A stretch of DNA of 64,000 nucleotides, from contig CP026511.1 in assembly GCA_004010935.1 (NCBI GenBank), positions 1,674,001-1,738,000 of the forward strand, given 5' to 3'. This document shows positions 63-45,718 of the stretch, piece after piece. Source of the stretch: Pseudomonadaceae bacterium SI-3 (GTDB taxonomy: Bacteria > Pseudomonadota > Gammaproteobacteria > Pseudomonadales > Pseudomonadaceae). Within the stretch, counting starts at the first letter, position 1, and the number at the start of each line of letters is the position of its first letter. Below the pieces are notes generated by a model. It was not told the origin of the DNA and made no database searches. It saw only the letters and a program-made list of their open reading frames with translations. Position numbers and translations under genes: made by a program.

Positions 63-377
63 TCAATGACTGAGCTTCAGGCCAAGCAGCCCGGTGCAAA
101 TCAATAGCACGCTGCCGAGGCGAAACAGGCTCATCGATTCCCCGAACAGGATGATGCCGGCGATCACCGTTCCCACTGCACCGACTCCAGTCCAGACGGC
201 GTAGGCGGTGCCCAGCGGCAAATCCTTCATGGCAAGCCCCAGCAGGCCCAGGCTGGCGGCCATCGCAGCGACAGTAAGCAATGTGGGAAGAGGGCGGGTG
301 AATCCCTCGGTGAACTTCAGCCCAACGGCCCAGCCAATCTCGAACAGACCGGCAAAAAACAGAATGACCCAGGACAT
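63..377 (-). CDS. gdx: Guanidinium exporter, SMR family (Gdx/SugE)
   Basis: 104-residue small multidrug resistance protein of the Gdx (formerly SugE) subclass, an inner-membrane guanidinium/H+ antiporter that works as a dual-topology dimer. Four hydrophobic segments fill the protein. The family glutamate is in the first helix ([12 protein letters not shown], about residue 13), followed by the Gdx signature [14 protein letters not shown] near residues 58-71. I chose the ATG at 377 (protein starts MSW as in E. coli SugE). A GAGG lies 7 bases upstream, whereas a GTG two codons earlier would overlap it. The guanidine-II riboswitch immediately upstream supports guanidinium rather than drugs as the substrate. 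Confidence 0.93.
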
Positions 378-405
378 ACGCACCTCGACAGGACGGTAAT
401 CAGGT

Positions 406-449
406 GGGGCCGTCCCCGGTGAGTGTGTACAGCCTGAGGTCGTCCTCAG
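406..449 (-). promoter_or_regulatory. Guanidine-II riboswitch (mini-ykkC)
   Basis: On the minus strand, between the BASS gene and gdx, there are two short hairpins with ACGR tetraloops, the defining architecture of the guanidine-II (mini-ykkC) class. The first is CTGAGG-ACGA-CCTCAG (449 to 434) and the second is GGGG-ACGG-CCCC (417 to 406). The second hairpin ends about 18 bases before the GAGG ribosome-binding site of gdx. That is consistent with translational control in which guanidinium binding stabilises both hairpins and frees the ribosome-binding site. Loop sequence, spacing and the downstream gene all agree. Confidence 0.9.
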
Positions 450-507
450 CGGGCGTTATTGTCCACAGCGAGCCGGTCCGGGCAAGAGCGCCGGACCGGC
501 GGCCGCG

Positions 508-3049: not shown

Positions 3050-3802
3050 ATGAGACCTCAACGTTTGGCGTCGGCGATAGCTCTGGTTGGCCTGGTCCTG
3101 GCGGGCTGTGATTCGGAAACCAGCGCTAAGCTGGAAACGCCAGCGCAGAAAGCCTCCTATGGCATTGGCCTGAACATGGGCAAGAGCCTGGCGCAGGAAG
3201 GCTTGGCTGATCTGGATTCGACGGCCGTCGCGCAAGGCATCGATGATGCCATCGGCAAGAAAGATCAGAAGCTGACCGATGAAGAACTGATGGAAGCCTT
3301 CGCTTATCTGCAGACTCGTGCCGAAGAGCGCATGGTCGAGATGAACAAGGAATCCGTTGCCGCTGGCAAGAAATTCTTGGAAGAGAACGCCAAGCGTGAA
3401 GGCGTTAAGACCACCGAATCTGGCCTGCAATACGAAGTGATCAAAGAGGCCGACGGCGCCCAGCCGGGTCCGGACGATGTCGTCACTGTCCACTACGAAG
3501 GCAGCCTGACTGACGGCACGGTCTTCGATAGCTCGATCAAGCGTGGCACCCCAATCGATCTTCCTGTCAGCGGCGTAATTCCAGGCTGGGTCGAAGGGCT
3601 GCAACTGATGCATGTCGGCGAAAAGTACAAGCTGTATATCCCGAGCGAACTCGCCTATGGCGAGCAGAGCCCGAGCCCGCTGATTCCTGCCAACTCCGTT
3701 CTGGTCTTCGACCTTGAGCTCCTAGGCATCAAGGGTGAAGAGGGCGAGGCGACGCCTCCACCGGAAGCTGTCGAAGAGGCTGTCGAGGCTGCCAAGAAAT
3801 AA
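3050..3802 (+). CDS. FKBP-type peptidyl-prolyl isomerase, lipoprotein (FkpA/Mip-like)
   Basis: 250 residues. It begins with a lipoprotein signal (LVLAGC lipobox, Cys 20), so the mature protein is probably anchored in the envelope. An FKBP_N dimerisation region (residues about 30-125, helical, QKASYGIGLNMGKSL) precedes an FKBP domain (about 130-230). That domain contains VHYEGSLTDGTVFDSS, VIPGWVEGLQLM and IPSELAYGEQ, the usual drug and substrate pocket residues. It would speed proline cis/trans isomerisation and chaperone envelope proteins. The C-terminal tail is low-complexity Glu/Ala/Lys. AAGGA precedes the ATG by six bases. Stands alone, with its own terminator downstream. Confidence 0.93.
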   Translation: MRPQRLASAIALVGLVLAGCDSETSAKLETPAQKASYGIGLNMGKSLAQEGLADLDSTAVAQGIDDAIGKKDQKLTDEELMEAFAYLQTRAEERMVEMNKESVAAGKKFLEENAKREGVKTTESGLQYEVIKEADGAQPGPDDVVTVHYEGSLTDGTVFDSSIKRGTPIDLPVSGVIPGWVEGLQLMHVGEKYKLYIPSELAYGEQSPSPLIPANSVLVFDLELLGIKGEEGEATPPPEAVEEAVEAAKK

Positions 3803-3820
3803 CAAGTCCTTGCGTTCCAA

Positions 3821-3846
3821 ACGCCCCGCATATGCGGGGCGTTTTA
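3821..3846 (+). terminator. Intrinsic terminator after the FKBP gene
   Basis: Stem ACGCCCCGCA/TGCGGGGCGT with a tight loop followed by TTTTAGTTT, 18 bases after the stop codon. Confidence 0.88.
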
Positions 3847-3893
3847 GTTTCCAGTGTCAGCTTTGTGTGAGAATTGGTTCGCCGAGTACGCAT

Positions 3894-3978
3894 TGTAGGA
3901 GCGAGCTTGCTCGCGATCAGTGGTGATGCGGTTCGGCAAACGGCTGTGTTTGGTTCGCCAGCAAGCGAGCTCCTACAG
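3894..3978 (+). repeat. Inverted pair of REP sequences (REPIN-like)
   Basis: A REP palindrome (GTAGGAGCGAGCTTGCTCGC, from 3895) is followed about 55 bases later by an inverted partner (CCAGCAAGCGAGCTCCTAC, ending 3976). This head-to-head pairing is the REPIN arrangement common in pseudomonads, mobilised by RAYT transposases. No RAYT gene is in the window. Confidence 0.8.
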
Positions 3979-4036
3979 ACCGTTGTTGTTGGGGCGTGGG
4001 AGGTTAGCGGCTACAAAGTAAAGCTCGGGCACTGGT

Positions 4037-4500
4037 CTGAGGCTTTGAAGTTGGCTCCGCGACCTTGACTCGACTGCGCAGCAGAACGCGCTTCAGTGCG
4101 GCCCCGAAGGGGTGAGCGAAGCGAATCACCTGGGACAGCGTCCCTGGTGAGAGTCCGACGGAAACAAAAAAGCCCCAGGTTTTCACCTGAGGCTTTGAAG
4201 TTGGCTCCGCGACCTGGGCTCGACTGCGCAGCAGAACGCGCTTCAGCGCGGCCTCGAAGGGGTGAGCGAAGCGAATCACCTGGGACAGGGTCCCTGGTGA
4301 GAGTCCGACGGAAACAAAAAAGCCCCAGATTTTCACCTGAGGCTTTGAAGTTGGCTCCGCGACCTGGACTCGACTGCGCAGCAGAACGCGCTTCAGCGCG
4401 GCCCCGAAGGGGTGAGCGAAGCGAATCACCTGGGACAGGTCCCTGGTGAGAGTCCGACGGAAACAAAAAAAGCCCCAGATTTTCACCTGAGGCTTTGAAG
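4037..4500 (-). repeat. Tandem array of three 150-bp units carrying tRNA-Asn 3' ends
   Basis: The string TTGGCTCCGCGACC recurs at 4051, 4201, 4351 and 4501, so the period is exactly 150 bases. The last occurrence belongs to the intact tRNA-Asn. Each of the three units repeats the 3'-terminal 22 bases of that tRNA gene (T-stem part, acceptor strand, discriminator and CCA), then about 128 bases that include a copy of the tRNA terminator hairpin. Units differ by only a few substitutions and compensating single-base indels. Because 150 is a multiple of three, stop-free frames of 117-179 codons run through the array on both strands. The arrangement resembles the 178-bp repeats downstream of E. coli tyrT. 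Confidence 0.92.
4465..4494 (-). terminator. tRNA-Asn terminator, repeated in each 150-bp unit
   Basis: Minus-strand stem AGCCTCAG/CTGGGGCT (one G-U pair) with an 8-base loop and a T7 tail, just past the mature tRNA-Asn 3' end. Near-identical copies sit at about 4315-4344 and 4165-4194 inside the array, so readthrough would meet serial terminators. Confidence 0.75.
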
Positions 4501-4501
4501 T

Positions 4502-4577
4502 TGGCTCCGCGACCTGGACTCGAACCAGGGACCCAATGATTAACAGTCATTTGCTCTACCGACTGAGCTATCGCGGA
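4502..4577 (-). tRNA. tRNA-Asn (anticodon GTT)
   Basis: 76-nt cloverleaf on the minus strand. Acceptor TCCGCGA pairs with TCGCGGA, the anticodon loop CTGTTAA gives GTT, a T-loop GGTTCGAGTCC is present, and CCA is encoded. Its 3' end is the sequence repeated in the downstream 150-bp array. Confidence 0.97.
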
Positions 4578-4628
4578 ACAGCGGTGCGTATCCTAATGAT
4601 AACTAAGGGGAAGTCAACCCTCGGCAGC

Positions 4629-5825
4629 TCAGAGAACCTGCACGATCGCGTCAGTCACGTGGTCCAGATTGCTGTGGTTCAATGCTGCGGCACAGATGCG
4701 CCCGGTGCCGATCGCATAGACGCCGAACTCGACGCGCAGGCGCTCGACCTGGGCGGCGGTCAGGCCTGAGTAGGAGAACATCCCGCGTTGCTTGGCGACA
4801 AAGCTGAAATCCTGCTTGGCGCCTTTTTCAGCCAGCTGTCGAACCATGGTCAGACGCATGTCCTGGATGCGGGTGCGCATCTCGCCCAGCTCGGTTTCCC
4901 ACATGGCGCGCAGCTCAGGGCTGTTGAGCACAGCAGACACCACGGTCGCGCCATGGGTTGGCGGGTTGGAATAGTTGGTGCGGATCACGCGCTTGATCTG
5001 TGACAGGACTCGGGCCGACTCGTCGCGGTTCTGGGTCACCATCGACAGCGCGCCGACGCGCTCGCCATATAGTGAGAATGACTTGGAGAAGGAGCTCGAT
5101 ACAAAGAAGCTCATGCCTGAGTCGGCGAACAGGCGCACAGCAGCGGCATCCTCCTCGATGTTGTCACCGAAGCCCTGATAGGCGATGTCGATAAACGGCA
5201 CGTGATCATTGGCGCGCAGCACTTCGAGGATCTGCTTCCAGTCCTCCGGCTGCAGGTCGACGCCGGTCGGGTTGTGGCAGCAGGCGTGCAGCACAACGAT
5301 CGAGCGGGGCGGCAGGTTTTTCAGGTCTTCAAGCATGCCGGCGCGGTCGATGCCATGGCTGGCTGCGTCGTAATAGCTATAGTTCTGCACGGGAAAGCCG
5401 GCAGCCTCGAACAGTGCGCGGTGGTTTTCCCAGCTTGGATTGGTGATGGCGACGACCGCATCGGGCAGCATGCGCTTGAGGAAATCCGCGCCGATCTTCA
5501 ACGCGCCAGTGCCGCCCAACGCCTGCGTAGTAACCACGCGGCCATCGGCAACCAGCGACGAGTCGGCACCGAATAGCAAGCCCTGTACAGCCATGTCATA
5601 ACTGGCGATGCCCTCGATGGGCAGATAGCCGCGCGGTGCATTCAGCTCCAGACGCGCCATCTCGGCGGCGGCCACCGCGCGCAGCAGGGGAATTCGGCCT
5701 TCTTCGTTGTAGTAGACGCCCACCCCCAGGTTGACCTTGTTCTGCCGACTGTCGGCATTGAAGGCTTCATTGAGGCCGAGGATCGGATCGCGCGGCGCCA
5801 TTTCGACAGCGGAGAACAAACTCAT
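4629..5825 (-). CDS. Aromatic amino acid aminotransferase (class I, TyrB/AspC family)
   Basis: 398-residue PLP enzyme of the AspC/TyrB family, transferring amino groups between aromatic amino acids or aspartate and 2-oxoglutarate. Visible landmarks are the substrate-loop region NLGVGVYYNEEGRIPLL, NPSWENH, ACCHNPTGVD (Asn binds PLP), DIAYQGFG, and the Schiff-base lysine in SSSFSKSFSLYGERVG near residue 250. The start at 5825 (MSLFSAVEM) matches family length, while the frame is open 72 codons further upstream. It is divergent from uvrB, as in P. aeruginosa PA3139/PA3138. Aromatic preference is inferred from synteny and similarity. Confidence 0.9.
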   Translation of the reverse strand: MSLFSAVEMAPRDPILGLNEAFNADSRQNKVNLGVGVYYNEEGRIPLLRAVAAAEMARLELNAPRGYLPIEGIASYDMAVQGLLFGADSSLVADGRVVTTQALGGTGALKIGADFLKRMLPDAVVAITNPSWENHRALFEAAGFPVQNYSYYDAASHGIDRAGMLEDLKNLPPRSIVVLHACCHNPTGVDLQPEDWKQILEVLRANDHVPFIDIAYQGFGDNIEEDAAAVRLFADSGMSFFVSSSFSKSFSLYGERVGALSMVTQNRDESARVLSQIKRVIRTNYSNPPTHGATVVSAVLNSPELRAMWETELGEMRTRIQDMRLTMVRQLAEKGAKQDFSFVAKQRGMFSYSGLTAAQVERLRVEFGVYAIGTGRICAAALNHSNLDHVTDAIVQVL

Positions 5826-13625: not shown

Positions 13626-13701
<76 letters not shown>

Positions 13702-13750
13702 ATCTCGATTGCCACACCGGTTCACGCCGGTTGCCTTTGAAGGGCTTTGC

Positions 13751-13826
13751 GTCCCCTTCGTCTAGTGGCCTAGGACACCGCCCTTTCACGGCGGTAACAG
13801 GGGTTCGAGTCCCCTAGGGGACGCCA
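13751..13826 (+). tRNA. tRNA-Glu (anticodon TTC), copy 1
   Basis: 76-nt cloverleaf. Acceptor GTCCCCT pairs with AGGGGAC, the anticodon loop CTTTCAC gives TTC, and GCCA is encoded at the end. Lies 49 bases after tRNA-Ala copy 1 and is identical to the copy at 13995. Confidence 0.97.
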
Positions 13827-13872
13827 TTATTCAAAATCGCAACGCGAGAGCGGGGCGAGAGACATTAGATCC

Positions 13873-13948
<76 letters not shown>

Positions 13949-13994
13949 ATCCACGACAGGTCGTAGCGGTTACGGTCTGTTCATCGAAGGTTTC

Positions 13995-14070
13995 GTCCCC
14001 TTCGTCTAGTGGCCTAGGACACCGCCCTTTCACGGCGGTAACAGGGGTTCGAGTCCCCTAGGGGACGCCA
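13995..14070 (+). tRNA. tRNA-Glu (anticodon TTC), copy 2
   Basis: Same 76-nt sequence as copy 1 at 13751; last gene of the four-tRNA cluster. A T9 run and a hairpin follow. Confidence 0.97.
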
Positions 14071-45447: not shown

Positions 45448-45718
45448 TTGTAGGTGGCCTTCAGTTCACCAAAGCAGCGACGGTTGACGGCATCGGTCCG
45501 GGTATTTGCCGGACGATATGCGGTGGGCTAAAGCCCACCCTACGGCTGCGGCCGGACAAGGAAACTGAAGAGATCGCAACACCTGTAGGGTGGGCTTCAG
45601 CCCACCAAAGCAGCGGCGATTGACGGCATCGGTCCGGGTGTTTGCCGGACGATATGCGGTGGGCTAAAGCCCACCCTACGGCTGCGGCCCGGCGAGGGAC
45701 CTGAAGAGATCGCAACAA
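45448..45718. repeat. Two tandem 136-bp units of inverted GGTGGGCT repeats
   Basis: Unit 1 starts at 45448 and unit 2 at 45584. Each holds two opposed hairpins (GGTGGGCTTCAGCCCACC and GGTGGGCTAAAGCCCACC) about 60 bases apart, with a nearly identical inner spacer (ATTGACGGCATCGGTCCGGG). The outer arms complete to GTAGGGTGGGC...GCCCACCCTAC. This is a REPIN-like doublet, tandemly duplicated, filling most of the 372-base gap between ttcA and the DAHP synthase gene. No gene is present. Confidence 0.85.

Follow-up and report, generated by a model that had tools for sequence, protein, structure and literature searches.

A tandem array behind a tRNA-Asn gene, best read as a Pseudomonadaceae member of the tRNA-linked repeats

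Here we describe a tandem array of three 150-nt units directly behind an asparagine tRNA gene in a 64-kb window of pseudomonad DNA (the window being the whole stretch that was analysed). The array is real and conserved; it is ordinary in kind, and its use lies in its testability. To judge from its sequence it is best read as a Pseudomonadaceae member of the tRNA-linked repeats (TLRs), a known but poorly understood class, and we put at roughly 0.6 the probability that it is transcribed from the tRNA promoter and that read-through, with cuts at the tRNA-like 3' ends, yields RNAs of about 150 nt. According to PMC8144298 (2021), cited here and below from excerpts of its text, TLRs date to 1978 and had no known function before that paper, and a role in the stringent response claimed for the tyrT repeat has since been retracted. 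We found no earlier description of this pseudomonad array in the open-access literature searched, which is not proof of novelty.

ARAGORN places the tRNA gene (GTT anticodon; Rfam tRNA model, 71.3 bits), the parent of the repeats, at 4502-4577 on the minus strand, and its coordinates together with those of TRF put the array downstream of the gene once that strand is read. TRF called the array at 4037-4523 with a period of 150, a copy number of 3.2 and 97% matches. Read 5' to 3', each unit opens with an AU-rich trailer, ACTTCAAAG, which is followed by an intrinsic terminator, the 17-nt anti-T-arm segment GGACTCTCACCAGGGAC, in the core, a succession of GC hairpins and, downstream of these, 22 nt that repeat the tRNA 3' end (TCGAGTCCAGGTCGCGGAGCCA, or the same with one base different); the trailer is 76% A+T versus 33% for the core. 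All units lie on the minus strand and are 150 nt long. Unit 1 (4352-4501; 133.4 bits with the covariance model R1 described below) has its terminator at 4469-4496, its anti-T-arm segment at 4439-4455 and its tRNA 3'-end copy at 4352-4373 (22/22 positions); the corresponding parts are at 4319-4346, 4290-4306 and 4202-4223 (21/22) in unit 2 (4202-4351; 132 bits) and at 4169-4196, 4140-4156 and 4052-4073 (21/22) in unit 3 (4052-4201; 129.5 bits). A truncated fourth unit of 15 nt (4037-4051, minus strand), recognised by sequence and ending at the TRF boundary at 4037, holds no more than the trailer and the terminator hairpin's first arm. An earlier note on this DNA had described three exact 150-bp units, each repeating the last 22 bases of the tRNA. 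The three units and their period stand, but the units are identical at 147, 146 and 145 of 151 aligned columns in pairwise comparison rather than throughout, and the tRNA end, though present in each, differs from the gene at 0, 1 and 1 positions and is thus exact in unit 1 only. An assembly artefact is unlikely, because the host genome is one contig of 4.84 Mb and multi-unit arrays recur in other one-contig genomes, for example G045, G003 and G030. Among the matches listed, the nearest named loci belong to Stutzerimonas or Pseudomonas sp.

Near-exact copies of a tRNA 3' end downstream of the tRNA itself are the hallmark of TLRs in the E. coli definition given in the excerpts of PMC8144298, which bears out the parallel with E. 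coli tyrT drawn in the earlier note. According to the same source, a TLR locus belongs to the transcription unit of a tRNA or rRNA and holds one to five units; three units stand here, and membership in the transcription unit was judged from these and from one conserved predicted promoter before tRNA-Asn. Among the 44 distinct ARAGORN tRNA sequences of the genome (58 tRNA matches covered), 3'-end copies (18 nt, at most 3 mismatches, within 600 nt) occur behind tRNA-Asn only, and none were found downstream of the four 5S genes. As a control, the copy search on 13 stretches of MG1655 recovered 13 tRNA TLRs, and its 5S version 3 more, of the 22 reported for E. coli (PMC8144298).

The tRNA-Asn promoter (TTGACT, 16 nt, TAGGAT; 4590-4617, minus strand) is the sole promoter-like site found by consensus scan in 3700-4800, and such a promoter (score at least 9/12) precedes tRNA-Asn in 73/73 named loci, at a distance of 12 nt in 72 and 13 nt in one. 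The three terminators stand behind the tRNA, copy 1 and copy 2, with only the first hairpin arm behind copy 3; together with one unrelated site they make up a scan total of four against a shuffle mean of 1.4, in keeping with the terminator-like hairpins that had been noticed with the units. In 67 of 68 distinct units a T-run adjoins a hairpin of 6 bp or more, the exception (L086_2), in which a C interrupts the T-run, being excluded from the fold test. Stem sequences vary by lineage and are of AAGCC type in 61/67 units and of GAACCC type in 5/67.

According to the reading that we favour, RNA polymerase would initiate at the tRNA-Asn promoter and most transcripts would stop at the terminator directly behind the tRNA, while the minority reading through would encounter two further terminators, so that the series would set the amount of unit RNA. 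A tRNA-trimming enzyme, of RNase E type by analogy with E. coli, would cleave behind the tRNA and also behind each copy, because the same AU-rich trailer follows the copies as follows the tRNA. The product would be a structured RNA of about 150 nt per unit, its amount coupled to tRNA transcription. We infer read-through, cleavage, stability of the product and any RNA target by analogy. In E. coli, as PMC8144298 reports in the excerpted text, three 5S-linked TLRs yield RNAs of 173 nt and 113-115 nt that are bound by Hfq and CsrA; those of rrB, where two terminators flank an 18-bp repeat spaced at 150 bp, arise by read-through, the authors explain the ends of the RNAs by RNase E, which would cut both at the 3' end of the parent and at the repeat, and deletion of the 5S-linked TLRs has modest effects. 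The end of E. coli RttR, annotated as 171 nt, coincides exactly with the end of the first tyrV copy.

The terminators would equally suit serial fail-safe termination, in which the units only halt transcription from a strong tRNA promoter and a stable RNA is neither made nor needed. Their retention in 67 of 68 distinct units with stems that differ by lineage speaks for such a role, as does the convergent gene at 3050-3802 that the array faces. We nevertheless regard it as rather unlikely, since it leaves unexplained the conserved core and the tRNA 3'-end copy that lie between the terminators, and the last terminator here is truncated. In addition, the gene downstream is variable, with 31 families represented among the first ORFs behind the array in 68 loci (ORFs called mechanically, minimum 110 aa), and there is therefore no fixed neighbour to shield.

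Conservation of the array in related strains, a check named in the earlier note, was confirmed. A DNA search with unit 2 matched 54/56 genomes of the genus, some of the matches being confined to the tRNA end or to a dispersed module. The covariance model R1 of the unit core, built from 46 non-redundant cores out of 67, matched 48/56 genus genomes and 123/398 Pseudomonadaceae genomes, in 9/19 genera, of which g5 is represented by a single match at E 0.006 and g14 by a single match at 1e-4. The terminal 18 nt of the tRNA recur as suitably spaced exact copies in 74/398 family genomes and 7/19 genera. A class-wide sample of 369 genomes gave the own genome and one weak match of 28.6 bits, which we judge to be chance. 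The exact-copy pattern, which covers this tRNA-Asn end only, was run on 341 genomes from the order and matched 7, all within the 15 Pseudomonadaceae of that sample. Among plasmids 332 records matched, none over more than 80% of the query, the best of those listed covering 15-21% at its tRNA end.

A tRNA scan of 12 of the 30 fetched model-match loci found tRNA-Asn in 11, the twelfth beginning at a contig end, and the gene was present in 73/80 named loci with the neighbouring aminotransferase. One or more 3'-end copies (at most 4 mismatches) lie in 40 of these 73 (one in 27, two in 11, three in 2), so that the comparison of copy number between strains proposed at the outset gives a range of 0 to 3; genome G050 has four matches to the unit model. 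The array is therefore dispensable, as 33 of the 73 loci are without a copy, these zeros including contig ends and decayed remnants. The 67 distinct units are 142 to 160 nt long. Behind tRNA-Asn in L042, L077 and L082 we see apparent decayed remnants of the TLR core, with no 3'-end copy found, from which loss of TLRs appears to be ongoing. At L043, CRISPR-like repeats (GGTTCATCCCCGCGGGCGCGGGGAACGC) stand directly behind tRNA-Asn in place of TLR units.

We also considered the array as a dispersed repeat and rejected this: a core piece of about 45 nt is found elsewhere in some genus members, but as a module only and not as TLR units. Nine of 20 such stretches were fetched; a tRNA was found in none, and the core piece was located in 8/9, in a setting that by eye resembles a MITE. 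The module shared by the TLR core and this MITE-like dispersed element is GATTCGCTTCGCTCACCCCTTCGGGGCCGCGCTGAAGCGCGTT (L114-L121, in genomes G051, G009, G044, G054, G037 and G011), and by eye suggests exchange of a hairpin module in either direction.

Rfam reports above its cut-offs only tRNAs and one guanidine-II riboswitch in the window, and relaxing the E-value around the array brought up no convincing match. The riboswitch (405-451, minus strand; 41.7 bits) lies directly upstream of an ORF (63-383, minus strand) that by eye is small-multidrug-resistance-like and is plausibly a guanidinium exporter. Two further tandem repeats were noted in the window: a tRNA-Ala(GGC)/tRNA-Glu(TTC) pair duplicated with a 247-bp period at 13626-14070, and a 136 bp repeat in two copies with 91% matches at 45449-45717, the consensus of which has inverted arms of GGTGGGCT/AGCCCACC type.

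Comparison among relatives indicates that the unit cores are under constraint and evolve in concert, because they lie below fourfold divergence and because a T-stem variant recurs in the adjacent copy. Without its 22-nt copy, the core is less diverged than the fourfold sites of the aminotransferase gene in 662/666 pairs. These pairs are non-independent and come from 37 loci, entered because their first unit is intact, meaning that it measures 110-190 nt, retains its T-run and has no more than 3 mismatches in the copy. Core divergence is 8.5% at 15% fourfold divergence and then stays at 14-15% as fourfold divergence rises from 27% to 44%. The compensated tRNA-Asn T-stem variant is common to L013 and L103 and recurs in the tRNA-adjacent copy of both; in L103 this copy has a one-base deletion and the second copy is without the variant. 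In 16 genomes with at least two distinct units, the nearest relative of 29/36 units lies within the same genome, a count in which ties were scored as own and which is favoured by the prior merging of identical units between loci.

Recombination, which the earlier note had suggested, is thus supported in the form of exchange among the units and between them and the tRNA, together with varied downstream neighbours. Taken further, the whole array could be a recombination product: its 22-nt direct repeats would let units multiply and convert one another, and the resulting by-product at the 3' end of a tRNA would be neutral or selfish, perhaps the relic of an integrated element or a reserve attachment site. 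The kinship of units within genomes, the T-stem variants of L013 and L103, the variation in copy number (with four model matches in G050) and the changing neighbours would all be expected of such a product. We consider it improbable all the same, since both the plateau of core divergence near 14% and the retention of terminators are unlike neutral sequence, although transfer or conversion between species could also give such a pattern.

The segment GGACTCTCACCAGGGAC matches the reverse complement of the T-arm region of tRNA-Asn itself at 15/17 positions. When nine units, drawn from the 68 distinct units collected, were scored for antisense matches against the 3'-terminal 40 nt of each of the 44 distinct tRNAs of the present genome, tRNA-Asn ranked first for 9/9. 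The tRNA-matching A in the anti-T-arm hairpin is kept in 44/46 aligned units, and its hairpin partner is also an A in 39/44. Base-pair support for the structure of the unit core is mixed. Paired cells in the 46 aligned cores reach 94.4%, versus 92.5% in shuffles (0/500 shuffles reach this value), and 24 cells are changed on both sides, against 8.7 in shuffles, 21 of them from one pair of the last hairpin (U-A 24, A-U 11, G-C 10); the number of base pairs with double changes in these cores, three, is not above the control (93/500 shuffles reach it). The closing helix GGACTC:GAGTCC of the window unit, a 6-nt complement with the 3'-end copy, is not above shuffled cores (p 0.50) and has no compensatory change in the 46 aligned cores; versions of 8 and 9 nt in two relatives beat shuffled cores (p 0.04 and 0.01). 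We also tried and dropped, as not specific, a refolding of the read-through RNA in which the 5' end of the tRNA pairs with the copy rather than with its own 3' end. This pairing is the best fold in 18/18 species, by 4.7-12.4 kcal/mol over the enforced cloverleaf. In eight species with 60 shuffles each, the mode persists in 59-60/60 shuffles of the anti-T-arm segment and in 56-60/60 of the core; the energy gain is matched or exceeded by no more than one anti-T-arm shuffle in 3/8 species and by more in the other five.

As the earlier note had observed, three frames stay open in the array of the strain analysed here, over 117, 160 and 179 codons, but they are not kept in relatives. The peptide suggested there, a repetitive basic product like E. 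coli Tpr, could point to these frames and to the annotation of tpr inside RttR in E. coli K-12. Only 18 of 67 distinct units have a length divisible by three (25 and 24 leave remainders of 1 and 2), and frames therefore shift between units in most relatives; core indels in the alignment are not multiples of three, the frame is not kept through units and relatives as in a Tpr-like coding repeat, and Pfam gave no match over cut-off on the three frames (best sub-threshold score 22 vs 24 bits). A coding role thus seems unlikely on sequence grounds, and a Tpr-like peptide in particular we hardly credit.

More tentatively, and with less confidence than we have in transcription of the array, TLRs may form a wider gammaproteobacterial class, each with an antisense T-arm segment matched to its parent, GC hairpins and a sense 3'-end copy, that reports the rate of tRNA or rRNA transcription. 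The sense copy would re-create a tRNA-processing site, TLR RNAs would be by-products signalling transcription rate to a regulator, and in pseudomonads, with units behind one tRNA-Asn gene, a terminator in each unit would act as dosage control. Should the units yield RNAs, transcription of tRNA-Asn would come with a small-RNA read-out built in. The array extends the TLR class beyond Enterobacterales, and as a multi-unit array at a single locus, which many Pseudomonadaceae conserve and some relatives lack or hold in decayed form, it offers natural knock-outs and a clean target for deletion.

Of the known systems, the E. coli rrA, rrB and rrF TLRs (PMC8144298, excerpted) share with the array a copy of the parent 3' end, 150-bp spacing, serial terminators, a place within a stable-RNA transcription unit and GC hairpins in the core. 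They differ in having 5S rRNA as parent, one unit per locus, a dissimilar core sequence and, in our scan, no anti-parent segment above noise; RNA and its binding by Hfq and CsrA have been shown for them. 3'ETS-leuZ, also annotated in MG1655, is an RNase E-dependent small RNA from the 3' part of a tRNA transcript (PMC8144298, excerpted), to which the predicted RNA of the array would be similar; unlike the array, leuZ has no 3'-end copy behind it in our scan, and the sponge function belongs to 3'ETS-leuZ.

The TLRs of the E. coli lys and arg operons resemble the array in their hairpin chain and in a tRNA-end copy, there 98-156 nt downstream, but are mostly single units between tRNA genes. Scoring of the antisense segment in E. 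coli ranked the parent tRNA first of 22 for 7/13 tRNA TLRs (four tyr, lysQ, lysV and lysW) and 2 to 9 of 22 for the other six, so that in the lysT, lysY, lysZ and arg units the segment is not specific as it is in the array; lysQ and lysV share with the array both an anti-T-arm segment and a T-run terminator hairpin at the start of the unit. We noticed no mention of an inverted T-arm segment in the excerpts of PMC8144298 and claim no priority for it. The E. coli tyrT/tyrV repeats (RttR, Rfam RF00391; tpr) differ in their parent, tRNA-Tyr, in units of 178 nt and in having no visible T-run terminator in each unit; the excerpted text of PMC12306157 lists rttR as holding a REP and says nothing further. 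The RtT model RF00391 found no match in the own genome at E 0.001, with E. coli the sole positive of 14 controls, and over 3800-4700 of the window it is missing from the matches listed even with E relaxed to 5. In architecture, the tyrT/tyrV repeats and the array are alike: in both, tandem units stand behind a tRNA, each ends in the tRNA 3' end, a parent-matched anti-T-arm segment lies upstream of the hairpins and the last unit is partial.
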